A stretch of 64,000 bases of DNA. Origin: an uncultured Eubacteriales bacterium (GTDB taxonomy: Bacteria; Bacillota; Clostridia; Oscillospirales; Oscillospiraceae). Where the stretch lies: positions 1 through 64,000 of the forward strand of contig ONEB01000004.1 in the NCBI GenBank assembly GCA_900316745.1. Direction: 5' to 3'. The notes below the pieces were generated by a model. The model saw nothing but the letters and a program-made list of their open reading frames with translations. It was not told the origin of the DNA and ran no database searches. The translations under genes and the position numbers were made by a program. Shown in pieces: positions 5,444-30,155 of the stretch; the stretch's first letter is position 1; every line of letters begins with the position of its first letter.

Positions 5444-5469
5444 CAGTTGTATAAAAATAGGAGGTTTTA

Positions 5470-5727
5470 ATGGACGATTTGTTAGGCTTTGGCGGAATGC
5501 TTGACTTGGATGGCGACGGTAGTCTGGACGTAGGTGAAACTGTGTTTGGTCTCATGATGATGGATGACGAGCTGGCAGATGAGAGCACAGAAGAGGAAGA
5601 CTGCGAACTCGAACTGATGACTGGATACAGCCGTGATGATTTGGAACTCATGGATTCGGAAGAACGCGCTGAGGTTCTGGAGGAAGCCGGATATGGGCAG
5701 AATGATTTCGGCTTTGACGATTTTTGA
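5470..5727 (+). CDS. Acidic EF-hand mini-protein, copy 1
   Basis: An 85-residue, strongly acidic protein beginning MDDLLGFGGM, with one textbook 12-residue EF-hand loop DLDGDGSLDVGE (Ca2+ ligands at loop positions 1, 3, 5, 7, 9, 12) at residues about 11-22, then a conserved tail GYSRDDLELMDSEERAEVLEEAGY. I do not know a function. An AGGAGG site precedes the ATG. A paralogue at about 80% nucleotide identity by eye lies at 21065-21319, on the far side of the PT defence operon, in the same orientation. Confidence 0.75.
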   Translation: MDDLLGFGGMLDLDGDGSLDVGETVFGLMMMDDELADESTEEEDCELELMTGYSRDDLELMDSEERAEVLEEAGYGQNDFGFDDF

Positions 5728-5746: not shown

Positions 5747-5797
5747 GTTTGAAATACTCAAACTTAAATTGCCATTTCTTAATTTTCCTGCTATAAT
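5747..5797 (+). promoter_or_regulatory. Promoter and adjacent palindrome of the defence operon
   Basis: TTGCCA (5769-5774), 17-bp spacer, TATAAT (5792-5797): a near-consensus housekeeping promoter about 50 bp before the small HTH gene. Directly upstream, 5747-5763 is a perfect palindrome GTTTGA-AATAC-TCAAAC, a candidate operator for that HTH protein. Confidence 0.65.
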
Positions 5798-5846: not shown

Positions 5847-6038
5847 ATGAATTACAATAAATTGTGGAAGCTTCTGATAGACAAGAAGCTTAGAAAGAAA
5901 GATCTCCGAGAGATGGCAGGACTCTCAACTAATGTTATTGCCAAGATGGGAAAAGGTGGCGATGTCTCTACGCAGGTGCTTCGGAAGATTTGTGAAGTGC
6001 TCGAATGCAAGATTGATGATATCGTGGAGCTTGACTGA
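5847..6038 (+). CDS. Small HTH regulator at the head of the PT defence operon
   Basis: A 63-residue Cro/C1-type HTH (HTH_26-like): LWKLLIDKKLRKKDLREMAG, then LSTNVIAKMGKGGDVSTQVL and the C-terminal CEVLECKIDDIVELD typical of this small family. The start has GAGGGTG upstream. It precedes the sulfurtransferase gene by 59 bp in the same direction and follows a consensus promoter with a 17-bp palindrome. Probable role: autorepressor or control protein of the defence operon, analogous to the C proteins of restriction systems (inference). Confidence 0.75.
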   Translation: MNYNKLWKLLIDKKLRKKDLREMAGLSTNVIAKMGKGGDVSTQVLRKICEVLECKIDDIVELD

Positions 6039-6097
6039 GCCTTATTCTGAGAATTCGTAACCTGGTGTATTATTGTTTTAGGAAGGAGGTTTAAGCG

Positions 6098-7813
6098 ATG
6101 TGGTGCAAAAACTGCAATTTGGAGACGAACGAACCAGTCTGCCCTGTTTGTGGATCGGAAACGTCTGAAGATCTGCCGGTTGAGATTTACTGGTGTGACG
6201 ATTGCAATATCCCAATTATCCACATTTCCACTGCGGCTGATAAAGGCATTTGCCCAATCTGTCGTGGGAAAACCCACTATTTAACCACTGATCTTAGACC
6301 AGTTTTTCCTGAAGAGAGGTTACTTCTTGCTATTCTTCTTGATAAATCGACCAATTCCTTTATGGAACACTCGGTATGGGCAGCTGGAAGCAGATATTAC
6401 ATTGATGGGAAATCACTATCTGTTCCAGCAAAAACTTTTGAGATAGCGAACACTGATAAAATCACTTCGCAGATCAACGGTTCTGCGGAAACAATAGACT
6501 ACGCTTATTTTAATGATACTATTCACAAATTTGTTCAGGCAAATCAACACAGACTTGCATATCTTAAAGATGAAGCTTTTTCTTTCGTCAGAAAAGCTGC
6601 AGAGAAATTCAAGGAAGAAAACATTGTTATCTCGTTTTCAGGCGGAAAAGATTCGACAGTAACAGCAGATGTAGTCACAAAGGCCCTCAGCAATCCGAGT
6701 CTAGTACATATTTTTGGAAATACGGCACTCGAATTTCCATCTACTATTGAATACGCAAAACGGTACAGGAACAACCATCCTCTTGCAATTTTCATGGTTG
6801 CACATAACGATGAGCAAGTCTTCTATGATGTATGTGAAGATATTGGGCCACCGGCCAGGATGATGCGCTGGTGCTGCTCGATGTTCAAGACTGGTCCAAT
6901 TACAAGGGTAATTAACAGCCTTTACCGGAACCAGCAGATATTAACCTTCTATGGAATTCGCAAGTCAGAATCTGTTAGTCGAAGCAAGTATAATCGGATT
7001 GAAGATGATGCGGAGTCCGTAAAAATCCAGCAGCAGACAGTTGCTTCACCGATCTTCTTCTGGAAGGATATCGACATTTGGCTATACATGCTTGCGGACG
7101 AAGTTGATTTCAACTATGCATACAGGCTCGGCTATGACCGAGTTGGCTGCTGGTGCTGCCCGAACAATAACCAGCGAGCACAATTCCTTTCACGAATTTA
7201 CATGCCAGAGGAATCAAAAAAGTGGCGAGAGTTTCTGATTGAGTTCGCAAAGAAGATTGGAAAGCCAGATCCGGAAGTATATGTTGATAGCGGAAAATGG
7301 AAAGCGCGGCAAGGAGGGAACGGACTTCCCTCGGCTGGCGACGTAAAGATACGTTTTACGAATTGCACGACAGAGGATCATGCAAAGATCTATCGCTTGG
7401 TTAGACCGTTTGATGATGAACTTACTGGAATGTTTGTTCCTTTTGGGCGTGTCGCACCGGAGCTTGGGAAAAAACTGCTCCGAGAGAGTATAATCCTTGA
7501 TGCTAAAACGAATGTCCCAATCCTCTCAATTCAGCCGTTCAGCCAGGACGGTTACGATTATGCAGTGAAGGTTAGGACAATGAACGTTGCAGACCATGAC
7601 GATTTACAACGCATGGTCGGCTATCAAATAAGGAAATTTAATGCCTGTCGGAAGTGTCTCAAATGCGAATCGATCTGCAGGCAAGGCGCAATCTCCATTA
7701 TCGGGGATAGCTATTTTATTGATCCGAGCAAATGTGTCCATTGCAAAATGTGCATGACCGCCAAATATCTTGATGGCGGTTGCATGATGGACAAATATCT
7801 TCGGACAAAGTAA
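6098..7813 (+). CDS. sspD: SspD/DndC-like PP-loop sulfurtransferase (PAPS-reductase family)
   Basis: A 571-residue protein of the DNA phosphorothioation pathway. Two N-terminal zinc ribbons (CKNC/CPVC at 3-18; CDDC/CPIC at 33-55) precede a PAPS-reductase/ATP-pyrophosphatase core with PP-loop SGGKDST (181-187) and a later CWCCPNN motif. The C terminus (about 517-565) is ferredoxin-like: CRKCLKCESIC and CVHCKMC plus a further Cys. In PT systems SspD/DndC adenylates the DNA phosphate and/or passes sulfur from the cysteine desulfurase. The 2[4Fe-4S] tail resembles archaeal PAPS-reductase-like proteins. AGGAGG precedes the ATG. Called SspD because it is followed by DUF4007 and a giant ATPase. Confidence 0.8.
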   Translation: MWCKNCNLETNEPVCPVCGSETSEDLPVEIYWCDDCNIPIIHISTAADKGICPICRGKTHYLTTDLRPVFPEERLLLAILLDKSTNSFMEHSVWAAGSRYYIDGKSLSVPAKTFEIANTDKITSQINGSAETIDYAYFNDTIHKFVQANQHRLAYLKDEAFSFVRKAAEKFKEENIVISFSGGKDSTVTADVVTKALSNPSLVHIFGNTALEFPSTIEYAKRYRNNHPLAIFMVAHNDEQVFYDVCEDIGPPARMMRWCCSMFKTGPITRVINSLYRNQQILTFYGIRKSESVSRSKYNRIEDDAESVKIQQQTVASPIFFWKDIDIWLYMLADEVDFNYAYRLGYDRVGCWCCPNNNQRAQFLSRIYMPEESKKWREFLIEFAKKIGKPDPEVYVDSGKWKARQGGNGLPSAGDVKIRFTNCTTEDHAKIYRLVRPFDDELTGMFVPFGRVAPELGKKLLRESIILDAKTNVPILSIQPFSQDGYDYAVKVRTMNVADHDDLQRMVGYQIRKFNACRKCLKCESICRQGAISIIGDSYFIDPSKCVHCKMCMTAKYLDGGCMMDKYLRTK

Positions 7814-7831
7814 ACGATGGAGGAAACAGCG

Positions 7832-8746
7832 ATGCCAATGAAATTTCGAGCTCATGATACTTTTTTCATCAGAAAAGGCTGGCTTTCTAAAGGCATGCGC
7901 TGCGTTGCGAGAAAGCCTGACGTTTTTGTTGCTCACGACGAAAACCCAATGGATGTTCTGGGGATCGGCGCCAATATGGTCAAGGCACTTAGATATTGGC
8001 TCCAAGCGGTTGGTCTTACTTCTGAGCCGAGTAAAGGAAAACGGGTTCAGAGCTTCACTGATCTCGGAAAACTAATATATGAGCATGATACTTATATCGA
8101 AGAACTAGGAACGCTTTATCTGCTACAATACAGCCTTGCATCAAAAAAGGAAGATGCAACAGCTTGGTATTTTTTCTTCAACGAATTTTCTATGTCGGAA
8201 TTTTCGAGAGAAGATTTTGTTGCTGCACTGCAAAAGTATATCAAGATGAACGACGCGGAGACCGAGTATGCTATCCGTTCGCTTAATGATGATTTCCAGT
8301 GCATCATCAATACTTACCTTCCACGCTATAAATCGAATCCTAGCAGAGTGAGTCCTGAAAACAACATCGATTGTCCCTTCGGGGAGCTAGGCTTGGTTGA
8401 TACTCTGAATAAGCGAAAGAAAACATACAAGAAAAGCATTCCTGCAAGTGACACGCTGAATCCTTATGTAATACTCGCGGTCATTGCCGATAACGCAAAG
8501 GGTCGCAGAGAGATTAGCTTGAACGAGCTTCTAACAGCTCCATATAATATTGGAAAGGTGTTTAACCTCGATTCAATTACTATGCTCGATGTGCTCTACA
8601 AGATAGAAAAGCTCGGCCAAATCAAGATCAATCGTACTGCCGGTCTTGACGTGATTACACTTCAAGCCGAGATGAGCTTTTTAGAGTGTGTCGAACTGTT
8701 CTATGCATCAATCGATGAACAGGGTCAGGAGGAGCAAAATGCGTGA
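7832..8746 (+). CDS. sspB: SspB-like DUF4007 protein (predicted PT-site DNA nickase)
   Basis: A 304-residue DUF4007 protein, starting MPMKFRAHDTFFIRKGWLSKG, the conserved N-terminal family signature, with LGIGANMVKALRYW and LGKLIYEHDTYIEE following. SspB of Ssp systems is a DUF4007 protein reported to nick DNA, giving SspD access for single-strand sulfur insertion. I chose the ATG at 7832, because GGAGG lies 8 bases upstream and overlaps the earlier in-frame ATG at 7817. The 3' end overlaps the next gene by 8 bp (ATGCGTGA), implying translational coupling. Confidence 0.8.
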   Translation: MPMKFRAHDTFFIRKGWLSKGMRCVARKPDVFVAHDENPMDVLGIGANMVKALRYWLQAVGLTSEPSKGKRVQSFTDLGKLIYEHDTYIEELGTLYLLQYSLASKKEDATAWYFFFNEFSMSEFSREDFVAALQKYIKMNDAETEYAIRSLNDDFQCIINTYLPRYKSNPSRVSPENNIDCPFGELGLVDTLNKRKKTYKKSIPASDTLNPYVILAVIADNAKGRREISLNELLTAPYNIGKVFNLDSITMLDVLYKIEKLGQIKINRTAGLDVITLQAEMSFLECVELFYASIDEQGQEEQNA

Positions 8747-11700
8747 TATGATTTCTGTTGCCTCTGGTTTCCAGTACTCTGTTAACATCGGGTACGATCT
8801 TGGCAGCGATAACAAGCTCAGAAACTTTATTCCGACAAAGTCCGCAATAAGCCTACTCGAAGATATTTTGCTTAGCGTAAATCCAACCTCGACAGACCGT
8901 GCTCGAGTGTTGATCGGCGCCTATGGCAAGGGTAAGTCCCACATTGTGCTGACAATCCTTTCTATGCTGCAGAAACGCGATATTAGGCTGTTTGAGAAGC
9001 TGATGCCGAAGGTTCAAGAGAATCCGAGGCTTTATCAGCTTGTCCAAAATTATTATGAAAGCGAGGATAAGATTCTCCCTGTTGTTATCAGCGGAAGTAA
9101 CACTAGCCTTACACAAGCGTTCTTGCTTTCCTTGCAGCGAACGCTCTCAGAGCACGAGTTGTTGTCGGCAATGCCAGAAACAAACTATAAAGCTGCTATT
9201 AGTGTGATTCGTCGCTGGGAAAAAGATTTTCCGGACGCTTTTAGAAGATTTCAAGAAGAAATTGATGAGCCCGTTGAAATCCTAGTCGATAAGCTGGAAA
9301 ACTATGACGTCATCGCCTACGAGACGTTCGAGAGAATATATCCTGCACTGACGGCGGGAAGCGTGTTTAATCCGTTCCTTGGTTTCGATGTGGTTGAGCT
9401 TTATGAAAGTGTTGCCAAGAGTCTGAAGCCTTTGGGTTATACTGGTATCTATGTTGTTTATGATGAATTTAGCAAATTCTTGGAGGCTAATATTGTTGAC
9501 GCTTCGGTCAGCGATACGAAAATGCTGCAGGATTTTGCAGAAAAATGCTGCCGGAGTAGAGATTTGCAGCTTCATCTGATGCTTATATCCCATAAGGAAA
9601 TCAGCAATTATATCGATGAGCTCCCAAAGGAGAAGACGGATGGCTGGCGCGGTGTATCTGAGCGCTTCAAGCACATCCACATGAACAATAACTTTACACA
9701 GACCTACGAGATCATTTCTTCTGTTATCCAACATAAGGAGCCGCTATGGGGTGCTTTCTGCAACGAGCATTACCGCGATTTTGAGGGGCTTCGTACTCGC
9801 TACCTAAGCCACCAGATGTTTAAGGATGCGCAGGGAGAAATTGAGACTGCGATCAAAGGCTGCTTTCCTCTTCATCCAGTGTCGACATTCATTCTTCCTA
9901 GATTATCTGAGCGTGTAGCGCAGAACGAGCGGACGCTTTTTACATTCCTTTCTGCAGAAGGGAATGCGACATTGGCGTCGTTCCTCGATGTTTATGAGAA
10001 TGACTTTACTCTTGTAACACCGGATCTGATTTATGATTATTTTGAGCCTCTGTTCAGAAAGGAAATATATACAGGAGGAATCCACGATACATTCGTCCTT
10101 ACAAGTGTAATTCTCAATCAACTTCCGGAAGGCACGCTAGGAAGTAAAATTATCAAAACGCTCTCGCTCATCTACATTCTAGAACAGTTTGAGCGCCTTA
10201 ATCCGACAAAGGAACAAATTATTGGCATCTATTCTGGTGCTTACGAAGTCGATGAAATAGAAAAAGCTATCTCCGATTTGATCGAGAAAGAATTTGTCGT
10301 TTATATCAAACGGAGCAACGACTATCTCCGCTTGAAGCAAACTTCTGGCGTTGACATCCAACAGAAGATCCATGATTTGGTGGAGTCTCAGACTGGAAAG
10401 GTTACGACAAAGGAAATCCTTAATGCTTCTAACTTCGATAACTATATATATCCCTCTCGTTACAACGACGAGCGTGAGATGACGCGCTTCTTTGCTTTTC
10501 AGTTTATTGATGGCGGTGAGATTGCCGACGATGTAGATTGGAATGTGAAGAGTGAGAGTGTCCAAGCGGATGGCATTATTTACGGAATCATCCCGGACAG
10601 TGAAGCTCAGCTTAAAGCGATCACACAAATTATCACTCGCACAAGTCAGGGCTTTGATCGGTTTATCTTTGTGCTACCAAAGCACTTTAGGAAGATAGAC
10701 GAAGTGATTCGAGAGTATGCCGCTGTCAAGCAGTTAAGAGATCTTGCCACGGATGATCCTGTCTTGTTCGACGAATACGAAGTTGTGTTCGAGGATTTGC
10801 AAGAGGTGATCAATGGTTTTATCGCTTCTTATACACATCCGGAAAATTATCGCTCGGTTTATATTCACGATGGTGCAGTTATTAATGTGAGCCGTAAATC
10901 TGGTCTCACTGAGGTAATGTCCAAAATCTGTGACAGAGTATTTGGCATGACGCCGATAATCAACAACGAGTCTGTAAATAAAAATGATATAACGAACATC
11001 GCAGCTAATAGTCGTAACAAAATCATCGGCGCGCTGCTTAGGAATGAACTGGAGCCAAATCTTGGATTGTCAGGGACTGGGCAGGAAGTTTCCATCATGC
11101 GCAGCACACTGCTTAGGACTGGAATCTGGAGTGAGGAAAACGGCATTCCTCAGATTAACCTCCATCCAGCGGATCTGGCCATGAGCAATATGTTGTCGAC
11201 TATAGAAAACTTCTTCCTAGAAGCAAGGCAGAATGGACAAATTAGTTTCTCAGTTCTTTATGAGAGACTAATCTCCCCGGAGTATCATGTCGGCCTGCGC
11301 AAAGGACTGATCCCAATCTATGTGGCAGCCGTCATGCACAATTACCGTCAGCAGATCGTGATAAGTAACCGGTTTGGGCCGGTACAAATGGGCGTTGATG
11401 CGCTGATACAGATTAACAGCAATCCTGGATATTTCTCAATCGAATATCTTGATTGGAATCCGGAGAAGGAAGATTACATTGCACGTCTCGCTACAGCGTA
11501 TGGAGATTTTGTTGTCGAAGCGGAGAAAGCTGGAAGCACCTATGATTATGTTGCTAACGCCATGCGACGATGGTTTATGGCACTTCCCAAATTCTCTAAA
11601 GAGTGCAAAGTTCGTCCTAACGGCATTAAAATTGGGAAACGCCAGCAAGAAATGATAAAGCTTCTCCGGTCAAATACCAGCGGTTCAGATTTGCTGTTCA

Positions 11701-12344
11701 AGAAACTTCCGACCATTTTTGCTTATGATGTTTTTACTGCTGATGCTGCTGGAGACGTTATTGGAGCAAAGAACCTTTACGATGGGTTGCTGGATGAGCT
11801 AAAAAAGTATTTAATTGCAGAAACCAAGCTCCGCTTCCTACCAAAGGAGGACAAGGAATCCGGAAAGAAAGCCTCGCTCACGACGGTCGTTAAAGAATGG
11901 TGTGATTCCCTTGATCCTAAAAGTTTCGAGCAACTCTTTTCTGATGGTACAGAACGTTTCCTGCAACACCTTAAGAGTGTGACAAATGACGAGGACTTGT
12001 TTATTACAAGGCTTGCAAAACTTGCTACGGGACTCAGGATGGAGGACTGGGACAGCCAGACGGAAGCGTCTTTCTTTACAGCCATTGAGCAGTTCATAAA
12101 GACTGCTAAAGAATTCCATGAAACGACCGTCGCGGAAACCATAAACGATACATCTAGCTATCAGGTGATCTTCGCTGATGAGGATGGCAAGAATACAGTG
12201 AGACGCTTTGATAAAGTCGAAGTATCGGCCAAAGGCAAGCTGCTGTTTAACCAGATCACATCATCGCTCGAGTCAATGGGGCATTCTATCTCTGAGCAGG
12301 AGAAGCGGCAAATCCTCATGGAAGTCCTGAAAAAACTCTGCTAA
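8739..12344 (+). CDS. sspC: SspC-like giant P-loop ATPase of the PT modification complex
   Basis: A 1201-residue protein with Walker A GAYGKGKSH (residues 60-68) near the N terminus and YVVYDEFSKFLEA as the likely Walker B around residue 240. The long C-terminal part has no domain I can name. Its layout resembles the large ATPases of SspC and BREX BrxC type. In Ssp systems SspC is the ATPase of the SspBCD modification complex. The start ATG at 8739 is preceded by AGGAGG and overlaps the sspB stop. It sits between the DUF4007 and cysteine desulfurase genes, as expected for a PT modification cassette. Confidence 0.78.
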   Translation: MRDMISVASGFQYSVNIGYDLGSDNKLRNFIPTKSAISLLEDILLSVNPTSTDRARVLIGAYGKGKSHIVLTILSMLQKRDIRLFEKLMPKVQENPRLYQLVQNYYESEDKILPVVISGSNTSLTQAFLLSLQRTLSEHELLSAMPETNYKAAISVIRRWEKDFPDAFRRFQEEIDEPVEILVDKLENYDVIAYETFERIYPALTAGSVFNPFLGFDVVELYESVAKSLKPLGYTGIYVVYDEFSKFLEANIVDASVSDTKMLQDFAEKCCRSRDLQLHLMLISHKEISNYIDELPKEKTDGWRGVSERFKHIHMNNNFTQTYEIISSVIQHKEPLWGAFCNEHYRDFEGLRTRYLSHQMFKDAQGEIETAIKGCFPLHPVSTFILPRLSERVAQNERTLFTFLSAEGNATLASFLDVYENDFTLVTPDLIYDYFEPLFRKEIYTGGIHDTFVLTSVILNQLPEGTLGSKIIKTLSLIYILEQFERLNPTKEQIIGIYSGAYEVDEIEKAISDLIEKEFVVYIKRSNDYLRLKQTSGVDIQQKIHDLVESQTGKVTTKEILNASNFDNYIYPSRYNDEREMTRFFAFQFIDGGEIADDVDWNVKSESVQADGIIYGIIPDSEAQLKAITQIITRTSQGFDRFIFVLPKHFRKIDEVIREYAAVKQLRDLATDDPVLFDEYEVVFEDLQEVINGFIASYTHPENYRSVYIHDGAVINVSRKSGLTEVMSKICDRVFGMTPIINNESVNKNDITNIAANSRNKIIGALLRNELEPNLGLSGTGQEVSIMRSTLLRTGIWSEENGIPQINLHPADLAMSNMLSTIENFFLEARQNGQISFSVLYERLISPEYHVGLRKGLIPIYVAAVMHNYRQQIVISNRFGPVQMGVDALIQINSNPGYFSIEYLDWNPEKEDYIARLATAYGDFVVEAEKAGSTYDYVANAMRRWFMALPKFSKECKVRPNGIKIGKRQQEMIKLLRSNTSGSDLLFKKLPTIFAYDVFTADAAGDVIGAKNLYDGLLDELKKYLIAETKLRFLPKEDKESGKKASLTTVVKEWCDSLDPKSFEQLFSDGTERFLQHLKSVTNDEDLFITRLAKLATGLRMEDWDSQTEASFFTAIEQFIKTAKEFHETTVAETINDTSSYQVIFADEDGKNTVRRFDKVEVSAKGKLLFNQITSSLESMGHSISEQEKRQILMEVLKKLC

Positions 12345-12359
12345 GAATGGAGGAAAACA

Positions 12360-13505
12360 ATGGCGTATTTTGACAATGCGGCAACTACATATCCTAAGCC
12401 GGAATGCGTCTATTCCTTCATGGACGAATTCTATCGGAATCACGGCGGCAGTGCCGGCCGAGGCGAATATGCGATGGCAGCATCCGCAAAAGGAATTGTG
12501 GAGGAAACTCGCGCCCTCTTGAAAGACCTGTTGCACTGCCCTGCAAAGCAAGTGATTTTTACACCGACGGCGACGATCGCTTTGAACATGATCGTGCAAG
12601 GACTGATTGCCGAAGGTGTAAAGAATGTTTATATCAGCCCGTTCGAGCACAATGCGGTTACAAGGACACTACATCATTTTGAGGAGATCGGAAAGATCAC
12701 TGTGACGGAACTTAGCGTGACAGAGAAACTCGAATACGATCTTGACCGGATACGATATCAGTTTGATGCTGTGAGACCTGATTTTATTATCGTAAGTCAC
12801 GCTAGCAATGTAATTGGACTAGTGGCTCCAGTTGAAGAAATATTCTCACTTGGAAAAGATTATTGTGCAACTACGCTTGTTGACATGGCGCAGACTGCGG
12901 GGCTCGTCGATCTGAACGTAGGTCTTGAAACTATTGACTTTGCAGTTTTTGCCGGACATAAAACGCTCATGGGACCCACAGGTATTTCTGGTTTTATTAT
13001 GAACCCAGTCTTTGATCTCCCACCTGTTCTTTTCGGAGGGACTGGATATGATTCGGCGAATCAAGATATGCCTGGCAGTCTCCCCGAACGATATGAAATG
13101 GGGACGCTCAATATTGCTGGAGTTGCGGGGTTAAACGCTGCGCTCAAATGGATAAAGGATCATTCTATTGAGGCCATTTTCCTAGAGGAAGAAAAACACA
13201 GGAGAAAACTCCTAACACTACTGGAAGATTACGATTTTCTCAGAATTGTCGGGAATGTCGAAGGAAGAAAGTATATTGGAATAGTCTCAGTACTCCTTGA
13301 TGGGATAAGCAGCGACGGCGCAGGAAGCATCTTTTCTGAGCGTGGTATCTCAGTGCGCACTGGACTCCAGTGCGCACCGAAAGCGCATCAGTTCCTTGGA
13401 ACTTATCCAGCAGGCACAATCCGATTCAGTGTAAATGCATTGACTGCAGATGCAGATTTCACAGAGTTAAGAGATGCATTGGACGATATTGAAGCAAATC
13501 TTTGA
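12360..13505 (+). CDS. sspA: SspA/DndA-like cysteine desulfurase
   Basis: A 381-residue fold-type I PLP enzyme of the NifS/SufS class. Landmarks: YFDNAATTYP at the N terminus, PLP lysine K201 in FAGHKTLMG, and a catalytic-loop Cys near 338 in RTGLQCAPKAH. It removes sulfur from L-cysteine as an enzyme persulfide and, in PT systems, hands it to SspD/DndC. Being embedded between the PT ATPase and helicase genes (15-bp and 12-bp gaps) marks it as the dedicated PT desulfurase and not a housekeeping IscS. GGAGG lies upstream of the start. The order D-B-C-A differs from the textbook A-B-C-D. Confidence 0.83.
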   Translation: MAYFDNAATTYPKPECVYSFMDEFYRNHGGSAGRGEYAMAASAKGIVEETRALLKDLLHCPAKQVIFTPTATIALNMIVQGLIAEGVKNVYISPFEHNAVTRTLHHFEEIGKITVTELSVTEKLEYDLDRIRYQFDAVRPDFIIVSHASNVIGLVAPVEEIFSLGKDYCATTLVDMAQTAGLVDLNVGLETIDFAVFAGHKTLMGPTGISGFIMNPVFDLPPVLFGGTGYDSANQDMPGSLPERYEMGTLNIAGVAGLNAALKWIKDHSIEAIFLEEEKHRRKLLTLLEDYDFLRIVGNVEGRKYIGIVSVLLDGISSDGAGSIFSERGISVRTGLQCAPKAHQFLGTYPAGTIRFSVNALTADADFTELRDALDDIEANL

Positions 13506-13517
13506 GGGGGCGGGTTC

Positions 13518-15710
13518 ATGAGCCTTAAGGACGTTGAACTTAAGAAAGAGTACAGGTCGCTACTCGATAATGTGGTTCAGGATTTTTACATCCCGCTTCT
13601 TAAAGATGCGACACTATATCAGCGAGCTGTGGGATTCTTTTCTTCGTCTTCACTAGTTGAGATTTCTAAGGGCATTGCAGCGATGGCTGAAGCTGGAGGG
13701 AAGATTCAGATTGTAGCTTCACCATACCTGTCCGACGAGGATGTTGAAGCAATTAAGAAAGGCTATTCCGATAGAGATAAAATTATTGAGGGAGCCTTAC
13801 TTTCATCACTCTCGGATGAGCACGTTGACTATTACTCAATGGAAAGGCTCAATCTTCTGGCAAACCTAATAGCAGACGGAGTTCTTGATATTCGTATCGC
13901 TTACACAGAAGACTCAAAAGGCATCGGTATGTATCATGAGAAAATGGGGCTCATTACGGACACTGACGGTAATCGGGTTGCGTTTTCTGGATCAATGAAT
14001 GAATCAGCAACTGCGATGTTGGTCAATTATGAAACAATTGATGTTTTCCGTAGTTGGGGTGATGAGAGCGAACAGGAGCGAGTTACGCTTAAGCAAAACG
14101 CTTTTTACTCCATTTGGAACGACACAGAGCCAAACATCCATGTGTTGGAGTTTCCTAAAGTAACAGAAGCGTTAATCGAAAAATATCGAAAGAAGTCTCC
14201 CAATTTTGGCCTTGACCGGCAGCAGTATTCGGGATCAAAGCGCAGACATACTGGCAGAACTGCCTCTGTTCATTCGATTGGGGCAAGAGTGCCGGAAGAG
14301 ATCGAATTCCACGCATACCAGAAAGAAGCGATCGCCTCATGGGTTGGCGAGAATTACCGGGGCATTTTTGATATGGCAACTGGCACCGGCAAAACCTTTA
14401 CTGGGCTTGGATCTATCGCAAAAATATCTGAAGACTTAGATGATGAACTTGCTGTAATTATTGTTTGCCCTTACCAGCATCTAGTTGAGCAGTGGGTTGA
14501 AGATATAGTTAAGTTCAACATGAAGCCGATTATCGGCTACAGTGCTTCAGCTCAAAAGGACTGGAAAAAGCGCCTCTCTAACGCCATCAGGGATCAAAAG
14601 ATCAGGAGAGACAAACGGTTCTTTTGCTTCGTTACAACCAATGCGACTTTCGCGAGTGACTACGTACAAGAGCAGATAAGTAAAATTAAAATGCCAATTC
14701 TGCTCGTTGTCGACGAGGCACATAACTTCGGAGCTCCGACATACGCTGAGTGCCTTGATGAAAGGTTTACATATCGACTTGCGCTCTCGGCAACGCTCGA
14801 ACGTCATCACGATGATGAAGGAACTTCTTTGCTTTATAGCTTCTTTGGAAAGAAGTGCATTGAATATCCCCTGAGTCGCGCAATTGATGAAGACAAGCTA
14901 ACTCGCTATAAATACTTTCCCATAGTTGTGTATCTTAATAATGACGAGCTGTCTCGGTATGAACAACTGTCATATGAGATGAGTAGATGCCTGATAAAGG
15001 ATAAAAAAGGAAATTACAAGCTCAATAAGCGCGGAGAAATTCTTGCTTTGCAAAGGGCTCGTATTGTAGCAGGAGCTTCAGAAAAACTGGTGTCTCTGAG
15101 GGAGCAAATCCTTCCGTATGTCCATGAAAACAATTTGCTTGTTTACTGTGGAGCAACGAATGTGTTGGACGAAAAAGCGGATCGATCTTCAACAGATGAT
15201 GGTGATGTTCGGCAGATTGAAGCGGTGACCAACATCCTGGGAAATGAATTCGGTATGTCGGTTTCGAAATTTACTGCAGATGAGGACATGGAAACTCGAG
15301 CTCTGATTGTCGATCAGTACCAGAAAAAAGGAAAGCTTCAAGCAATAGTTGCCATTAAATGCTTAGACGAAGGTGTTAATATACCTGGGATCCGCACTGC
15401 TTTTATTCTTGCGAGCACGACTAACCCAAAAGAGTATATTCAGCGGCGTGGACGCGTGCTTCGAAAGGCCCCTGAGAAAGAGTTTGCGGAAATTTATGAC
15501 TTTATAACTCTGCCTCGGCCATTAGACACAGTGTCGTCGATGACTGAGGATCAGGTTAAACGCGACATGTCTCTTGTTAGGAATGAGATTGCAAGAATAA
15601 AGGAATTCGGACGGCTTTCTATGAATCCTATGGATGCGGAAAGCCTAATCTGGGAAATACAAGATGCATACCACATTACGGACGACGAGCCGGGCGAGGG
15701 GGAATTTTGA
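13518..15710 (+). CDS. PLD-nuclease/SF2-helicase fusion, predicted PT-linked restriction factor
   Basis: A 730-residue fusion. The N-terminal quarter is PLD-like (phospholipase D superfamily) with MYHEKMGLITD and FSGSMNESATA, the H-x-K and N/E half-motif of such nucleases. The rest is a superfamily 2 helicase: Walker A MATGTGKTF (about 285-293), VVDEAHNFG (about 398), LSATLERH, and motif VI QRRGRVLRK (about 640). Helicases of this build are recurrently linked to dnd/ssp loci as restriction components acting on unmodified DNA. It may be the SspF-like member of an SspFGH-type module, but I cannot verify the correspondence. Its stop overlaps the next start (TGATG). Confidence 0.72.
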   Translation: MSLKDVELKKEYRSLLDNVVQDFYIPLLKDATLYQRAVGFFSSSSLVEISKGIAAMAEAGGKIQIVASPYLSDEDVEAIKKGYSDRDKIIEGALLSSLSDEHVDYYSMERLNLLANLIADGVLDIRIAYTEDSKGIGMYHEKMGLITDTDGNRVAFSGSMNESATAMLVNYETIDVFRSWGDESEQERVTLKQNAFYSIWNDTEPNIHVLEFPKVTEALIEKYRKKSPNFGLDRQQYSGSKRRHTGRTASVHSIGARVPEEIEFHAYQKEAIASWVGENYRGIFDMATGTGKTFTGLGSIAKISEDLDDELAVIIVCPYQHLVEQWVEDIVKFNMKPIIGYSASAQKDWKKRLSNAIRDQKIRRDKRFFCFVTTNATFASDYVQEQISKIKMPILLVVDEAHNFGAPTYAECLDERFTYRLALSATLERHHDDEGTSLLYSFFGKKCIEYPLSRAIDEDKLTRYKYFPIVVYLNNDELSRYEQLSYEMSRCLIKDKKGNYKLNKRGEILALQRARIVAGASEKLVSLREQILPYVHENNLLVYCGATNVLDEKADRSSTDDGDVRQIEAVTNILGNEFGMSVSKFTADEDMETRALIVDQYQKKGKLQAIVAIKCLDEGVNIPGIRTAFILASTTNPKEYIQRRGRVLRKAPEKEFAEIYDFITLPRPLDTVSSMTEDQVKRDMSLVRNEIARIKEFGRLSMNPMDAESLIWEIQDAYHITDDEPGEGEF

Positions 15711-15877
15711 TGGCAGAAGAAATCAAAGTTAATGGCAAAGCAGTTGAGCGCCTTAAAAGATGGATCATTCTGATGGAAAATCAGAATATCAAAACCCGAG
15801 GTAAAAGCGATCCAGAGATGGTGAAAGCTATCAAAAAGCGGATTGAGGAGGAAGCCAATGCTGCTGAAATCAATTAA
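15710..15877 (+). CDS. 55-residue conserved-position protein in the PT operon
   Basis: A short reading frame starting with ATG that overlaps the helicase stop by one base (TGATG) and running 20 bp into the DndD-like gene. The product is small and basic, with helical character: AEEIKVNGKAVERLKRWIIL, then MVKAIKKRIEEEANAA. Codon use and tight coupling on both sides argue for translation. I do not recognise a family; a small DNA-binding or complex-bridging subunit is possible. Alternatively it is a translational coupler whose product has no role. Confidence 0.55.
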   Translation: MAEEIKVNGKAVERLKRWIILMENQNIKTRGKSDPEMVKAIKKRIEEEANAAEIN

Positions 15878-17858
15878 ACTTGTAAACTTTCGACAGTTTA
15901 TGAATGAAGAGATTGCTTTCGCTTCAGGCGAAAACGGAAAGAATGTTACTATTATTCTCGGCGAAAATGGCACTGGTAAAACTACGTTTGCACAAGCTTT
16001 CTTCTGGTGCCTATACGGGGATACGGAGTTTTCTGATAAGATGATTCTGAACCGGCTGATTGCGAATCGGCTACTTACCGGTCAGAGTGCAAAGGTTGTG
16101 GTTGAACTGCAACTTCTGCATGGAGAAAATGCGTATACGCTCACTAGGGAACAGACTTATACCAAAGACGTAGCAGGAAATATCAAAGGTGCCAACACAG
16201 TGTTTGATATTATGCGCCGCGATAGGTCTGGAAATACAACTATGATCAAACCGACGCTCAGGGAAGCCGAAGTGAATAGTATTCTTCCTAAGGAACTGTC
16301 GAAATATTTCTTTTTTGACGGCGAACGAATTGAGCGGATGAGTAAAGATATTTCTACGCATAAGAAAGCAACAGATTTTGCGGATGCTGTACGTAGCCTT
16401 CTTGGACTTAAGGGAATGGAGAAGGCTATCCAGCATCTTAACCCTGGCAGTAAGTTTAGCGTCATCGGACAATATGAAGCTAGCTATGATTCGAGTAGTA
16501 ATGCCCGCATCGCTGAATTAACAAAAACGATCGAAGAGTGCAATGCGAAGATCGACAAGCTGAATGCCCGCATTGAAGAACTAGATCGACAGATGGAACT
16601 GGCTCAGATTAGAAAAGCCCAGAAAACAGAAGAACTCAAACAATACGAAGATGGGGAGAAGTGGCAGAGCGAGAAAGAAAAACTTGAAAAAGAAATTGCA
16701 GCAGCACAAAGAGCTCGTTCCTCCATGGTAAAGGCAATTTGCTCAGATTTCACCGGAAATATTGGCTCGTTCCTTTCGGTTTGGATGACCCAGAAGGCAA
16801 TGCGAATGCTGCAAGATTGCGACTTTACTGGTAAAGATATTCCACACATGCATGGAGATACAATTGAGTATTTGTTGAAGCAGCGGGTTTGTATTTGTGG
16901 GACTCATCTTACAGAGGGCTCTATGCCATACGAAAAGGTTAAGAGTCTAATCGAATTTTTGCCTCCTAAGTCTTTGAGTTCCAACATTAGCGATTTCAAG
17001 AAGGCGGCAGTCAGACGTGTTAGCGGAGCACAGCAAACAGATTTGCTTGAACAGGTTGGCGAGCGTTTGAGCGTTATCAGCCAGCAAGAAGACGAGATTA
17101 CCAACCTTACCGTGGAACTGCATAGTGTGGAGCAAAAGCTGAGCGGGGATGATGTCAGAGCAAAAGTACGGGCGATCAACGCCGAGGTTCAACGGTGTGA
17201 TAAGGTACTTCGTGATAGTCAACACGAGAGAGATCGGTGTATAAGCGATAGAGGCGATGCATCGGGGCGTAAGGAGCGAGCTGATACTCGTCGTGGTGAA
17301 TTGGCGTTGCTTGATGAAAGCAATAAGAAAACGGAAATCTACAAAGCCTATGCTGAGCGCGTCTATAAAGAACTGGTTGAGTTTTACAAAAAGAGCGAAG
17401 ATGACGTGCGGATGAAACTTCAGGATACCATTAACGAAATCTTCAGACAGATTTATGAAGGTGGTCTGGCGCTAACAATTGATGATAAATATCACATTTC
17501 TGTCTATGCGGACGAATATCATGGCAACGTCGAAACGTCAACAGCCCAAAGTATTTCTGTCATTTTCGCGTTTATCACTGGCATCATCAAAATGGCACGA
17601 GATAATCGCAACGCTACAAATGAAGACGACAAATTGTTGTCCTCTGAGCCATATCCGCTGGTAATGGACGCACCTCTCTCTGCGTTTGACAAGCGTAGAA
17701 TTAAAACTGTCTGTACTGCGCTACCGGAAGTTGCGGAGCAGGTCGTTATTTTCATCAAGGATACAGATGGAGACCTCGCCGAAGAGCACATGGGCGACCG
17801 AATTGGCAGCAGGCATCGTTTTGAAAAACTCAACGAGTTTGAAACAAAATTGGTCTAA
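15858..17858 (+). CDS. DndD/Rad50-like SMC-type ATPase of the PT system
   Basis: A 666-residue ABC-type ATPase. N-terminal LKSIKLVNFRQF and Walker A GENGTGKTT (residues 35-43); signature-type AQSISVIFAF; Walker B LVMDAPLSAFD (about 600). A long coiled coil occupies the middle, with a CICG element near 344 that looks like half of a zinc hook. The KYFFFDGERIERM segment is typical of DndD. In Dnd systems DndD is part of the modification complex; in an Ssp locus that already has SspC it more likely serves interference together with the helicase (inference). The start is the ATG at 15858, with GAGGAGG 6-8 bases upstream; the earlier TTG is less likely. Confidence 0.78.
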   Translation: MLLKSIKLVNFRQFMNEEIAFASGENGKNVTIILGENGTGKTTFAQAFFWCLYGDTEFSDKMILNRLIANRLLTGQSAKVVVELQLLHGENAYTLTREQTYTKDVAGNIKGANTVFDIMRRDRSGNTTMIKPTLREAEVNSILPKELSKYFFFDGERIERMSKDISTHKKATDFADAVRSLLGLKGMEKAIQHLNPGSKFSVIGQYEASYDSSSNARIAELTKTIEECNAKIDKLNARIEELDRQMELAQIRKAQKTEELKQYEDGEKWQSEKEKLEKEIAAAQRARSSMVKAICSDFTGNIGSFLSVWMTQKAMRMLQDCDFTGKDIPHMHGDTIEYLLKQRVCICGTHLTEGSMPYEKVKSLIEFLPPKSLSSNISDFKKAAVRRVSGAQQTDLLEQVGERLSVISQQEDEITNLTVELHSVEQKLSGDDVRAKVRAINAEVQRCDKVLRDSQHERDRCISDRGDASGRKERADTRRGELALLDESNKKTEIYKAYAERVYKELVEFYKKSEDDVRMKLQDTINEIFRQIYEGGLALTIDDKYHISVYADEYHGNVETSTAQSISVIFAFITGIIKMARDNRNATNEDDKLLSSEPYPLVMDAPLSAFDKRRIKTVCTALPEVAEQVVIFIKDTDGDLAEEHMGDRIGSRHRFEKLNEFETKLV

Positions 17859-17871
17859 GGGGGGCGAGAAT

Positions 17872-18405
17872 GTGTTTGATAAACCGTATCGGCTGAGGGG
17901 TATTCACTCAAAAAAGGCCAGAGAGCTCGTAGCATTTTTCGATGGAGCTAGCAAGGCACAGTTTTTTAAGGCTGCAAAAGATGTCTATGCATATGCACCC
18001 CTAGTAGGCTTTCTATACAATCGCCGCGCCGAACTAGACCATACTAAAAGCGAAGAAACCGGAGAGGAATTGGATTACAGCATCATGGCCGAGCAAGTCC
18101 TCTCTGTACAAGAAGAACTTACATTCAATTTCTGCCTTATTATGCTTCTTGACAGCATGTATGAATCTGATGAAGAAGCTCGAATCGATAAAGCTTTTCG
18201 GTATGTTGGAAAGATCCCGGAGGACGAAGCACGCTTCGATGAGTATGTTCGTGGAGGTATAGATGTGCTTTATGAGAAGCTTATTGAGGGTGGAGGCGAG
18301 CCGGAAGACTACGTAAAACGCCTTTATGATTTTCTGGAAGACATTCAGGATCGATATAATCAAGAAGTTGACGCCGACGCTTTAATGAAGCTTTGCGTCA
18401 CCTAA
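17872..18405 (+). CDS. Unrecognised 177-residue protein of the PT operon
   Basis: I do not recognise this family. The frame extends upstream, but the best start is GTG at 17872, with AAGGGGGG 7 bases before it, 13 bp after the DndD-like stop. The product is mostly helical and acidic, with motifs VFDKPYRLRGIHSKKARELV, APLVGFLYNRRAELD and LYDFLEDIQDRYNQE. No transmembrane segment or catalytic motif is apparent. Its position between the DndD-like ATPase and the sigma factor, with tight spacing, makes it a candidate accessory subunit, possibly the third member of an SspFGH-type module. Confidence 0.7.
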   Translation: MFDKPYRLRGIHSKKARELVAFFDGASKAQFFKAAKDVYAYAPLVGFLYNRRAELDHTKSEETGEELDYSIMAEQVLSVQEELTFNFCLIMLLDSMYESDEEARIDKAFRYVGKIPEDEARFDEYVRGGIDVLYEKLIEGGGEPEDYVKRLYDFLEDIQDRYNQEVDADALMKLCVT

Positions 18406-18419
18406 GGAGAAAAAAAGTA

Positions 18420-19499
18420 ATGGAGAGGGATACACGTCAAGCTGCACTTAGACAGCTTCTTGCAATCGCAGCATCAAACGGATATGTTACGTTTGATGAT
18501 GTTATGCGTTGCGCTGACGACAACTCCCTCTCCATTGGCGAATTTGATTGGCTAGCTGAAACTGCTAGCTCAAGGAATGTCATCATTTATGATGAAGCTC
18601 CAAAGCCAGTAAGTTCAGAAGATGATGATTACGATGACTATGCCCAAGTCGACTATGAACAGACATTTTCTGAAGCCGTAGAGATGGCCCCAGAGACAGA
18701 GATGCTCATTGAGGGTATTCGGCGTATCAAGCCTCCTCAAAAGGGTGAAGTTGGTCGACTAAAGTATCAGGTTATAGAAGGTAATGTTCACGCCCGTGAG
18801 CGCATGATAGAAATGTATCTTCGCTTGGCTGTGAGGCTCGCCGTTTCAAGAGCAAAAACTTATGATCTTGCTCTTGAAGAAACAATTGGCGATGCTATTA
18901 TTGGCCTAATAGTTGCCGTGGATAAATATGACCCAGACTATTCTGGGCCGTTCGTTTCATTTGCATCTCTCTGGATTTATCAGAACATGTCTAGAGAACA
19001 AAGCACAAGGAATCCTAACCTCTATTTTCCGGTACATCGTAAGGAATGGTTCTATACAATGTACCCCATGCTCAAGGCAAGAGGGTGCATTGAGTGCGAT
19101 ACTATTTTGCAGTGTGATAAAGTCAATGACATGATCTGCGAAAAAATCCAGTGCGAACAGGAACGAGTTTGTGATGTTTTGAATGCCGCGCTACCTTGCT
19201 TATCCCTAGACGAAATGGCTGAGAATGATGTTGAAGATGAGCGCTATAGTTACCCTGACGCAGATCTGATTGAGGAAGTTGAGTCAAGAATTCGCTCAGA
19301 AAAAGTGAGTAAGGCGCTCGATTGCCTTCGCGAAAGAGAGCGAGAAGTATTAATAGACCGCTACGGCCTAAAGGGTGAGCCGGAAAAAACACTTGAGCAA
19401 GTAGGTCAGAAATACAACCTTACCAGAGAACGTATACGTCAGATTGAGAACAAGGCGCTTAAAAAGCTTCATGCGAACCGACATCTGCGCAATATGTAA
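18420..19499 (+). CDS. RpoD-like sigma-70 factor encoded as last gene of the PT operon
   Basis: A 359-residue sigma-70 family protein. The N terminus (about 1-55, LRQLLAIAASNGYVTFDDVM) resembles a sigma 1.1 domain, followed by an acidic linker. Region 2 (about 125-205) carries the RLAVRLAVSRAKTYDL...FVSFASLWIYQNMSRE pattern equivalent to core binding and -10 recognition, ending in the region 2.4/3.0-like NLYFPVHRKE. Region 3 is divergent and Cys-containing. Region 4 (about 295-355) is strong: CLREREREVLIDRYGLKG and NLTRERIRQIENKALKKL. AAGGAG precedes the ATG at 18420, 14 bp after the previous stop. An intrinsic terminator follows. It probably directs RNA polymerase to specific promoters, perhaps those of this locus. 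Confidence 0.85.
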   Translation: MERDTRQAALRQLLAIAASNGYVTFDDVMRCADDNSLSIGEFDWLAETASSRNVIIYDEAPKPVSSEDDDYDDYAQVDYEQTFSEAVEMAPETEMLIEGIRRIKPPQKGEVGRLKYQVIEGNVHARERMIEMYLRLAVRLAVSRAKTYDLALEETIGDAIIGLIVAVDKYDPDYSGPFVSFASLWIYQNMSREQSTRNPNLYFPVHRKEWFYTMYPMLKARGCIECDTILQCDKVNDMICEKIQCEQERVCDVLNAALPCLSLDEMAENDVEDERYSYPDADLIEEVESRIRSEKVSKALDCLREREREVLIDRYGLKGEPEKTLEQVGQKYNLTRERIRQIENKALKKLHANRHLRNM

Positions 19500-19528
19500 C
19501 CGCGAGAATTTGATACTCTCGCGGTTTT
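19499..19528 (+). terminator. Terminator of the PT defence operon
   Basis: A 9-bp stem (19499-19507 with 19517-19525) followed by TTTT, directly after the sigma factor stop. It closes the collinear run that starts at 5847. Confidence 0.75.
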
Positions 19529-19551: not shown

Positions 19552-20121
19552 ATGTGCGGACGCTATCAATTTACCACCGGCTCTGACGACATGTCCGCCG
19601 CCATCGTGGATATGCTTGATCGGCGCTATCCCGGCGAATACAAGACCGGCGAGATATTCCCCGGCGACGCGGCGCCTGCGGTGATCAGCGACGGCGGGCG
19701 GATCGTGGCGGTGCCGGCGATTTTCGGTTTTCCGGGCTATCAGGACGGGAGGCTCCTCATCAACGCCCGCTCCGAGACGGCGGCGCAGAAGCAGACTTTC
19801 TCCGAGAGCCTGCGCGAGCGGCGGATTGTTCTCCCGGCGAGCGGCTTTTTTGAGTGGAGCCGCGACGCGAAAAAGACGAAATATCTCTTCACCGTGGGCG
19901 GTGAGAACCTGATTTACCTCTGCGGCATCTATAAGATCATCGACGGGCAATACCGCTTTGCGATCCTCACGCGGGACGCCAATGCCTCCATGATCGAGAC
20001 GCACGACCGCATGCCGATCATCATCGCTAAGGAATCGGTTCGAGCGTATTTGACGGAGCGTGATACGGCGATGACGCTGATCGATTCGGCGTCTCCGCTT
20101 CTTGATAGGACGCCTGCGTAA
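19552..20121 (+). CDS. SRAP-domain protein (YedK/HMCES family)
   Basis: A 189-residue SOS-response-associated peptidase domain protein. After Met removal the catalytic Cys2 is in MCGRYQFTT; other signature elements are INARSET, GFFEWS and THDRMP. Family members crosslink covalently to abasic sites in single-stranded DNA through Cys2 and protect them. The ATG follows GGAGG. It lies immediately after the PT operon terminator. Single-strand breaks or abasic sites made by PT enzymes could be its context, but that link is only inferred. Confidence 0.88.
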   Translation: MCGRYQFTTGSDDMSAAIVDMLDRRYPGEYKTGEIFPGDAAPAVISDGGRIVAVPAIFGFPGYQDGRLLINARSETAAQKQTFSESLRERRIVLPASGFFEWSRDAKKTKYLFTVGGENLIYLCGIYKIIDGQYRFAILTRDANASMIETHDRMPIIIAKESVRAYLTERDTAMTLIDSASPLLDRTPA

Positions 20122-21046: not shown

Positions 21047-21064
21047 AGAATCAGGAGGTTCAAA

Positions 21065-21319
21065 ATGGACGACTTCTTAGGCTTTGGCGGATTGTTTGAT
21101 GCGGACGGCGACGGCAGTCTGGACGCGGGTGAAACTGCGTTCGGTCTCATGATGATGGATGACGAGCTGACAGATGATGGCGCAGAAGAGGAAGACAGCG
21201 AGCTTGAACTGGCAACCGGATACAGCCGTGATGATTTGGAGCTCATGGATGCGGAAGAGCGTGCTGAGATCCTTGAGGACGCCGGATACGAGCCGGATGA
21301 TTTTGACTTTGATCTGTGA
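21065..21319 (+). CDS. Acidic EF-hand mini-protein, copy 2
   Basis: An 84-residue paralogue of the protein at 5470-5727, with the same MDD-LGFGG start, one canonical EF-hand loop DADGDGSLDAGE and the tail GYSRDDLELMDAEERAEIL. The two copies flank the PT operon in direct orientation. AGGAGG precedes the ATG. Its stop overlaps the AAA ATPase start (TGATG), so the two are translationally coupled; a Ca2+-dependent partner of that ATPase is conceivable but unproven. Confidence 0.75.
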   Translation: MDDFLGFGGLFDADGDGSLDAGETAFGLMMMDDELTDDGAEEEDSELELATGYSRDDLELMDAEERAEILEDAGYEPDDFDFDL

Positions 21320-29984: not shown

Positions 29985-30155
29985 GGCGCTGCACCCCCCG
30001 AACCAGCTCAATTATGAAAAAGCGGTAAATTTAGCCTACATATACACTTTTCTGCTCAGTGCCAGAGTATCACGAAAAGTCAGAAATTACAAGGGAAATT
30101 CGCTAAATTGTATCATTCCTGGATTCAGCCTAAAGTGATCAGAATACTTTTCGTT

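Follow-up and report, generated by a model that had tools for sequence, protein, structure and literature searches.

The locus described here raises the question of what system is formed when DNA sulfurization genes, a restriction cassette and a sigma factor stand together in one operon. In the 64,000-nt window, which is the whole stretch of DNA analyzed, the open reading frames place ten genes between positions 5847 and 19499, all on the plus strand. This location was correctly called by a first-pass annotation, as was the collinear and tight arrangement of the genes. The intergenic gaps lie between -20 and +59 nt (59, 3, -8, 15, 12, -1, -20, 13 and 14 nt in gene order). We propose that these genes probably constitute a phosphorothioate (PT)-based self/non-self defence operon, in which an Ssp modification module is joined to a PbeABCD restriction module. 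The first reading of the DNA had already paired an Ssp PT modification module with a PT-linked interference module, and both protein families and motifs agree with this.

An Ssp phosphorothioation module, with its genes arranged SspD-SspB-SspC-SspA, makes up the first half of the operon. In described Ssp systems the mark is single-stranded and is placed in a short motif (CCA in Vibrio). SspD (6098–7813) is a long, BrxP-like form (PADLOC BrxP, E 8.1e-81; SspD, E 7.9e-12; PF01507, E 3.1e-29) with Zn ribbons, a PP-loop PAPS-reductase domain and a C-terminal 4Fe-4S ferredoxin-like domain. Its PP-loop (SGGKDS) and cysteines 517, 520, 523, 527, 546, 549 and 552 are invariant in 37 of 37 aligned rows, one gene being entered twice. 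SspB (7817–8746) is a DUF4007 protein (PF13182, E 4e-85) that matches the solved SspB structures 6juf and 6lb9 (E 1.4e-24) and would by family be the DNA-binding and nicking subunit. SspC (8739–12344, from a refined ATG start) is an ATPase of 1201 residues (PADLOC SspC, E 2.7e-124); the G/G/G/K/S of its Walker A and the D/E of its Walker B motif are invariant in 45 of 45 sequences. A profile search of PDB sequences returned no match to SspC at the limits set. The SspA-like cysteine desulfurase (12360–13505; PF00266, E 1.2e-66; PADLOC SspA, E 4.5e-38) retains Cys338 and Lys201, as do all 33 sequences compared. SspB, SspC, a PP-loop SspD and a desulfurase thus adjoin each other with intact catalytic motifs. 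The order D-B-C-A, initially thought to be unusual, is that of 28 of the 46 surveyed loci.

HMM searches place the PP-loop and DUF4007 proteins within PT families. The PP-loop protein had been named SspD-like; the family stands, but this long form scores far higher as BrxP (270 bits) than as SspD (43 bits), with DndC at 45 bits. A ferredoxin-type tail on the PP-loop protein is described both for BREX type 4 and for a subset of SspD proteins (PMC12839542). BREX type 4 (BrxPCZL) has in common with our operon a BrxP-like PP-loop protein with a ferredoxin-type domain, a DUF4007 protein, an ATPase and a desulfurase (PMC12839542, PMC11931770). DUF4007 and often a desulfurase are common to this BREX type, and the combination of DUF4007, ATPase and desulfurase can no longer be regarded as specific for single-strand PT modification, as had been assumed (PMC12839542). 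The operon could then be a BREX type 4 variant, in which BrxP and a BrxC-like ATPase persist while PglZ and BrxL have been replaced. The best score of the PP-loop protein and a BrxC match of the ATPase (149 bits) speak for this interpretation. Yet the SspC score of the ATPase is much higher (414 bits), neither PglZ nor BrxL has a match among the ten operon proteins, and the sole PglZ match in the genome falls under the family cut-off and lies on another contig. In addition, the effector genes of the operon are those of Pbe. We therefore consider a BREX type 4 variant very improbable and retain the Ssp assignment. A Dnd core was not found among the operon proteins either: the DndC and DndD models match only the PP-loop and PbeC proteins, in both cases under the respective BrxP and PbeC scores.

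The second half of the operon is the PbeABCD cassette, known in this order (PMC6459918, PMC10853773), followed by the sigma-70 factor. PbeA (13518–15710) carries a PLD/HKD nuclease domain fused to an SF2 helicase (PADLOC PbeA, E 1.5e-244). Residues H140, K142, D148 and G158/S159/N161, the Walker A motif and the D/E/H of the DEAH box are present in 22 of 22 sequences. PbeB (15710–15877) is a small, fast-evolving protein of 55 residues between PbeA and PbeC, and its refined ATG start at 15710 overlaps the PbeA stop by one base. No match to PbeB occurs in the domain and defence profile libraries searched; it is assigned by position and by weak but consistent pairwise matches (19–23 bits) to proteins at the equivalent position of other loci, of which a profile finds more. 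PbeC (15858–17858, refined ATG start) is an ABC ATPase of the CxC type (PADLOC PbeC, E 2.1e-111) that scores 371 bits as PbeC versus 128 bits as DndD. The CxC motif is present in 33 of 33 sequences, and a profile search found no match among PDB sequences at the limits set. PbeD (17872–18405; refined GTG start, 177 aa), the partner of PbeC, belongs to the "DNA phosphorothioation-associated protein 4" family with a TIGR04062 match (E 1.2e-4) that is under the family cut-off. A profile-profile comparison with 12 other PbeD proteins gives a probability of 97 (E 1e-10), and a profile search of PDB sequences had no convincing match (best E 0.067). Since the AlphaFold model from a 6-row alignment is unusable (pLDDT 41), the DndE likeness of PbeD rests on PMC10853773. 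The first-pass annotation had described a PT-linked interference module of helicase and DndD-like genes. The link to PT stands; the supposed mixture with Dnd does not, as the module is PbeABCD and its ATPase is of the CxC type, not DndD.

How does this assembly compare with known systems? The DndCDEA-PbeABCD system of Haloterrigena jeotgali has the same PbeA-PbeB-PbeC-PbeD order beside a PT modification module (PMC6459918). The operon in the window differs from it by an Ssp instead of a Dnd modification module, so that the Dnd coupling of the first-described PbeABCD is not found here, and by the extra sigma factor. In the PbeC tree, which did not include the H. jeotgali protein, PbeC of the window groups separately from three archaeal and cyanobacterial plasmid proteins. 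With SspABCD-SspE and SspABCD-SspFGH the operon shares SspA, SspB, SspC and SspD (PMC8092258); it differs by its Pbe restriction module, the long BrxP-like SspD and the order D-B-C-A. As first reported, SspE is missing from the operon, where no protein matches GmrSD_N or GmrSD_C (DUF262/DUF1524). One GmrSD_N gene occurs elsewhere in the genome, on a different contig.

Both modules were known before, and their association is new here; our literature search found no published description of an Ssp-Pbe pairing. This association recurs. In a sample of 398 genomes of the phylum, DUF4007 is present in 31 and PbeA in 24 genomes, and both in 14 where 1.9 would be expected (Fisher p 1.5e-11). Excluding the genome of the window leaves 13 of 397 (p 1.1e-10). 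Pbe is the commonest resolved effector at the DUF4007 loci of this sample (12 of 28 examined, or 13 with a split case), followed by FGH-like genes with 6. The same gene order was found again in other genomes, and the records of Oscillibacter sp. 1-3 and Flavonifractor sp. An82 contain a full SspDBCA-PbeABCD set from which the sigma gene is absent.

It could still be argued that Ssp and Pbe are separate systems in one operon, and that Pbe acts without a PT mark or with another modification. Pbe does exist without Ssp: among the 24 PbeA-positive genomes, PbeC falls inside the Ssp group in 11 and outside in 10, and 3 have no intact PbeC. In PMC6459918, 165 of 553 PbeAC pairs are without a nearby modification partner. 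Distances correlate strongly within the modules and weakly between them (SspC-PbeC, rho 0.30, a value reached in 85 of 2000 permutations; SspC-PbeA, rho 0.38, 59 of 2000). These values are insufficient to establish a partner-specific co-adaptation of SspC with PbeC or PbeA. Against independence, one group of Pbe cassettes is bound up with Ssp, mostly in tight operons: in the PbeC tree, all 20 rows linked to Ssp lie on one side of a single branch (support 100/100), opposite to 13 others. DUF4007 is present in 11 of 11 genomes with Ssp-group PbeC and in 1 of 10 outside (p 3.4e-5). Furthermore, the published DndCDEA-PbeABCD gives no protection against PT-modified virus (PMC6459918). Two unconnected systems are thus an improbable explanation, and we favor a functional union of Ssp and Pbe.

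Ssp modules are also paired with other effectors. Two sister Ssp modules (L015 and L016) carry differing effectors, and close relatives of the Ssp module in the window stand with SspFGH-like genes, recognized by profile in L015 and by size and place in L017. Together with the strong within-module and weak between-module correlations, these cases indicate that Ssp and Pbe cassettes are exchanged. In one genome (G850, locus L070), about 31 kb of a single contig separate the Ssp half from the Pbe half, and next to either half stands a 440-aa DDE transposase, identical in both places. Adjoining these transposases are the two ends of a small gene that L057 and L083 have intact between sspA and pbeA, and we conclude that the two halves were very probably once a single operon. 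An empty-site search of 16 genomes with the upstream phosphatase found one relative (62%) besides that of the window; 12 further flanking proteins had no match in the phosphatase-bearing stretch. Viral contigs contained no relatives of PbeC or SspB, and only three phage records, all unannotated, contained a DUF4007 relative.

The proposal of one promoter and one terminator for the operon proved sound. A sigma-A-type promoter on the plus strand (5769–5797; TTGCCA-17-TATAAT, TG before the -10 element, 11 of 12 consensus bases) ranks first among 26 promoter-like sites between 4000 and 21000, a class that as a whole is no more frequent than expected by chance (shuffles average 24.4). An intrinsic terminator on the same strand (19498–19528) has a 10-pair stem, a 9-nt loop and TTTT. 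The hairpin itself (19498–19526) is followed by this short T run, two letters of which belong to the stem, and the 51-nt stretch folds with -16.9 kcal/mol (z -3.8; 0 of 200 shuffles equally good). The scanner did not report it, as the loop exceeds the scan maximum of 8. The first gene (5847–6038) encodes a 63-aa Cro/CI-type HTH protein (HTH_26, PF13443, E 4.7e-17) that is probably the operon regulator; 7 of 46 loci have a similar HTH gene immediately 5' of their Ssp genes.

The last gene (18420–19499; refined ATG start, 359 aa) encodes a sigma-70 family factor with regions 1.1, 2 and 4 (Pfam). Is it part of the system or a bystander 3' of the operon? Of the 20 rows of the PbeC tree that are linked to Ssp, 16 have no such gene, and elsewhere the slot 3' of PbeD is occupied by unrelated genes. 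In near relatives this slot holds a protein of about 300 residues, whose AlphaFold model (pLDDT 50) has no PDB match at E <= 0.001. On the other hand, at E <= 1e-33 the sigma family occurs in just 3 of 398 genomes, that of the window included, and each copy is immediately 3' of PbeD (4–25 nt). A fourth case, L057 from the order sample, follows PbeD by 29 nt. The PbeC tree unites these four sigma-bearing cassettes (support 100/98), yet they are scattered in the SspC tree, where L057 and G850 are close together and the window and L092 are placed elsewhere. A bystander is therefore unlikely, and we regard the sigma factor as belonging to this Pbe subtype. Near L062, a low-scoring sigma-like gene looks like a sporulation-type factor and was left out of the count. 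The MZA system likewise has a sigma-70 factor, MzaA, in a defence locus. The sigma factor of the window scores 75.9 bits (PADLOC) and 115 bits (NCBIfam) against MzaA, far under the curated cut-off of 800 bits and similar to its scores with other sigma models.

From these protein families we can sketch how the operon very probably equips the bacterium's own DNA with sulfur marks through Ssp and attacks unmarked DNA through PbeABCD, a cassette that published work has paired with DndCDEA (PMC6459918). SspA would draw sulfur from cysteine and hand it to SspD; using its Fe-S domain, SspD would introduce the sulfur into the DNA backbone at a short motif. SspB would choose this motif and probably nick there, and SspC may serve as the ATPase motor of modification. 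PbeC and PbeD may scan DNA and, where the PT mark is absent, PbeA would translocate on or unwind the DNA and nick or block it, with PbeB restraining or coupling the complex. Regulation of the operon probably falls to the small HTH protein. The weakest step concerns the sigma factor, which during infection would most likely enable RNA polymerase to express either the restriction genes or further genes of the host.

Among 2,678 sspBCD modules surveyed in published work, most (2,211 as printed) had neither SspE nor SspFGH, which led to the question whether further restriction counterparts exist (PMC8092258). An Ssp-Pbe pairing fits this gap as well as that of PbeAC without a nearby partner (PMC6459918). 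Given the co-occurrence, the Ssp-linked PbeC group and the cassette exchange, Pbe is a good candidate for a restriction partner so far missing from "orphan" Ssp modules. More tentatively, we surmise that a dedicated PbeABCD branch may read the Ssp sulfur mark and be the missing partner of many such modules, with the sigma factor of one sub-branch coupling restriction to transcription; this is possible, but we would not call it likely. The sister modules L015 and L016 are naturally suited to show whether a single PT mark can serve several restriction modules. If the broader idea is true, the captured primary-type sigma factor may arm the operon, or redirect RNA polymerase when a phage disturbs the host sigma factor.

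All ten genes of the Ssp-Pbe operon lie on one strand (5847-19499), with successive gaps of 59, 3, -8, 15, 12, -1, -20, 13 and 14 nt. The first gene is preceded by a TTGCCA-17-TATAAT promoter whose end lies 49 nt away; it ranked top of 26 scanned sites, in a scan where promoter-class sites were no more frequent than in shuffled sequence. A hairpin of 10 base pairs, followed by a short run of T, begins within the last stop codon, and a gene for an SOS-response-associated peptidase (SRAP, 19552-20121) begins directly 3' of this terminator. PADLOC profiles identified SspB (2.1e-60), SspC (2.7e-124), SspA (4.5e-38), PbeA (1.5e-244) and PbeC (2.1e-111). SspB also matched Pfam DUF4007 (4e-85) and the solved SspB chains 6juf/6lb9 (1.4e-24). 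The four effector genes correspond, in the same order, to the PbeABCD set described in PMC10853773, where PbeA unites an HKD nuclease with an SF2 helicase, PbeB is small and evolves quickly, PbeC is the CxC ABC ATPase and PbeD a DndE cognate. The 177-aa protein in the PbeD position weakly matched "DNA phosphorothioation-associated protein 4", and a profile-profile comparison of 20 such proteins with 12 encoded at other Pbe loci gave a match with a probability of 97 (E 1e-10).

For the PP-loop protein encoded by the second gene, the PADLOC match to BrxP (8.1e-81, 270 bits) exceeds that to canonical SspD (43 bits). This protein combines Zn-ribbon-type cysteine pairs at the N-terminus with a ferredoxin-type domain at the C-terminus, an arrangement which, according to PMC12839542, is shared by BREX type 4 and by a subset of SspD. 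By these scores, the protein is BrxP-like rather than a canonical SspD. Its SGGKDS motif and the ferredoxin-type cysteines (517, 520, 523, 527, 546, 549 and 552) are kept in 37/37 aligned rows (36 distinct, since loci L069 and L135 hold one identical gene); the first Zn-ribbon pairs are absent in about 10 of them. Cys338 and Lys201 of SspA (33/33 rows), the Walker A/B residues of SspC (45/45) and the CxC motif of PbeC (33/33) are equally invariant, as are H140, K142, D148, G158, S159 and N161 of PbeA together with its helicase motif residues (22/22). The usual HKD spacing is one residue shorter than that of H140-K142-D148. The invariance of these residues favors assignment of PbeA as a nuclease, and is not proof. 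PMC10853773 favors cleavage as the mode of Pbe action on grounds of the HKD domain.

We surveyed 46 loci longer than 5 kb from samples of genomes of one phylum and a few plasmids, 9 found by similarity to the SspC of the window and 37 centered on DUF4007 genes elsewhere in the genome samples; genes were labeled with profiles built on the window's own relatives. In 28/46 loci the Ssp genes stand in the order D-B-C-A on a single strand, with or without insertions between them; 20 have a same-strand PbeC (one cut by a contig end, one in two ORFs), and 7 begin with a small HTH gene immediately before the Ssp genes. These counts are lower bounds, because some loci end at contig ends. In one Ssp locus (L090:8995-18400), SspC and SspA are separated by another DUF4007-like gene and another SspC-like ATPase. 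Of the 398 genomes in the phylum sample, 31 have DUF4007. We examined 27 of the 30 other than the window's, omitting G819, G972 and G1011 with partial or weak matches. Among these and the window, 28 in all, Pbe genes are adjacent in 12 (PbeA remnants only in G999; Pbe before Ssp in G939); in one (G850) they share a contig with sspA at a distance of about 31 kb. SspFGH-like trios occur in 6 (the naming rests on profile matches in L015 and, for the first gene, in L067, and otherwise on size and place), helicase/GHKL/PLD trios in 2 (named after profile matches of L058) and a GmrSD gene as the sole effector seen in one; no effector was assigned in 6. At L058:7971-12424, L080, L082 and L138:21647-26226, the genes after the Ssp module encode a helicase, a GHKL ATPase and a protein of the PLD family, an arrangement that also occurs on plasmid pTS1 of Treponema saccharophilum. 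This trio is likely a further Ssp effector.

An independent search for PbeA in the same 398 genomes (E <= 1e-60, at most 2 candidates scored per genome) returned 24 positive genomes spread over 23 genera. DUF4007 and PbeA occur together in 14 genomes against 1.9 expected (p 1.5e-11, uncorrected for kinship of the genomes), and in 13 when the window's genome is excluded (p 1.1e-10). PbeC lies inside the Ssp-linked group of the PbeC tree in 11 of the 24, all with DUF4007, and outside in 10, of which one has DUF4007 (G1032, about 150 kb away); the remaining three (G971, G999 and G1079) are without an intact PbeC. We found no description of an Ssp-Pbe operon in the passages of open papers examined. 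PMC7464106 tallied "PT-modifying genes and pbeA-D" jointly, so that such pairs may hide within its counts, and PMC10853773 mentions CxC systems without DndD.

In G850, SspDBCA and PbeABCD-sigma share a contig, with about 31 kb between the end of sspA and the start of pbeA. Both halves are bordered by the same DDE transposase (440/440 residues identical; L070:10204-11765 and L124:10263-11973). A small gene that L057 and L083 carry intact, flanked by sspA and pbeA, is found here in two pieces, the N-terminal part beside sspA and the C-terminal part beside pbeA. The two halves were very probably one operon that has since been split. The window operon is flanked by a serine recombinase (28992-30011) on one side and a LexA/CI-like S24 repressor (3420-4232) on the other, which may mark a mobile region. 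Around it lies a 249-nt direct repeat (5469-5717 and 21064-21312, 15.6 kb apart, 85% identical), each copy encoding an 84-85 aa acidic gene; the repeat may be a trace of insertion or duplication of the segment. A search for an empty site lacking the operon, using the upstream phosphatase in 16 genomes, found none.

The sigma-70 factor encoded by the last gene clearly matches Pfam region 4, whereas its matches to regions 1.1 and 2 are barely above cut-off; regions 1.2 and 3 are seen in addition in the RpoD-like factor of this genome. The segments that contact the promoter look conserved beside RpoD. The factor need not drive the operon, because the operon promoter resembles an ordinary sigma-A promoter. 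Among 11 proteins compared, three relatives score 185-205 bits and the next, the genome's RpoD, 94. The family occurs in 3/398 genomes (the window's, G850 and G995; E <= 1e-33, at most 5 candidates scored per genome), and its gene directly follows PbeD in these and in a locus of the order sample, L057. In loci whose Ssp module is closely related to that of the window, this slot is occupied by an unrelated, acidic-tailed protein of about 300-480 aa in which a D-P-x-x-M-x-K motif is conserved (L012:20130-21053, L014:18186-19355, L016:13123-14064, L019:19710-20627 and L020:19717-21162), for which scans gave no match in Pfam (L012, L020) or in PADLOC and NCBIfam (L012). L078 and L087 have a GmrSD-type-looking protein of about 720 aa (L078 scanned). 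Since the content of the slot varies, the sigma gene counts as one accessory among several, and it is fixed in one Pbe subgroup. In Pbe systems without Ssp, a weak sigma-70 region-4-like stretch is present in a protein of 958-1320 aa encoded immediately before PbeA (four of five tested: L132:8532-12002, L134:8091-12053, L125 and L128, not L123), so that Pbe may have acquired sigma-like domains on more than one occasion.

Finally, we asked how the two modules relate by descent. Effector labels on 38 of the 45 rows of a quick SspC tree change 10 times, against a shuffled mean of 12.7 (as low in 4/200), and the Pbe label alone 10 times against 11.6 (as low in 92/500). With values this near the shuffled ones, the effector hardly tracks the Ssp tree at all. 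The sister loci L015 (SspFGH-like) and L016 (Pbe) are 89% identical in DNA over 8.1 kb, stopping inside sspA. The window and L012 share 84% identity in SspC and only 32% in PbeC; for the window and L092 the values are 30% and 48%. Across 18 Pbe-linked loci, pairwise identities correlate by rank within modules (SspC-SspB 0.96, PbeA-PbeC 0.78) and less between them (SspC-PbeC 0.30, as high in 85/2000 permutations; SspC-PbeA 0.38, 59/2000). Modules are thus exchanged close to the sspA/pbeA border. Exchange of Ssp effectors has already been seen for SspE and SspFGH, according to PMC8092258. In a careful IQ-TREE analysis of 33 PbeC rows (omitting the fragment L063, the duplicate L069 and the split L087), the 20 Ssp-linked rows, including G850, all fall on one side of a single branch (support 100/100), "clade" status being root-dependent in this midpoint-rooted tree. 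On the other side are 13 rows, 10 from Bacillota-sample loci without adjacent Ssp and 3 from plasmids. The four sigma-bearing rows are united by one branch (100/98). Judged from this tree, the Pbe cassettes of the examined Ssp modules come, despite the exchange, from one branch.
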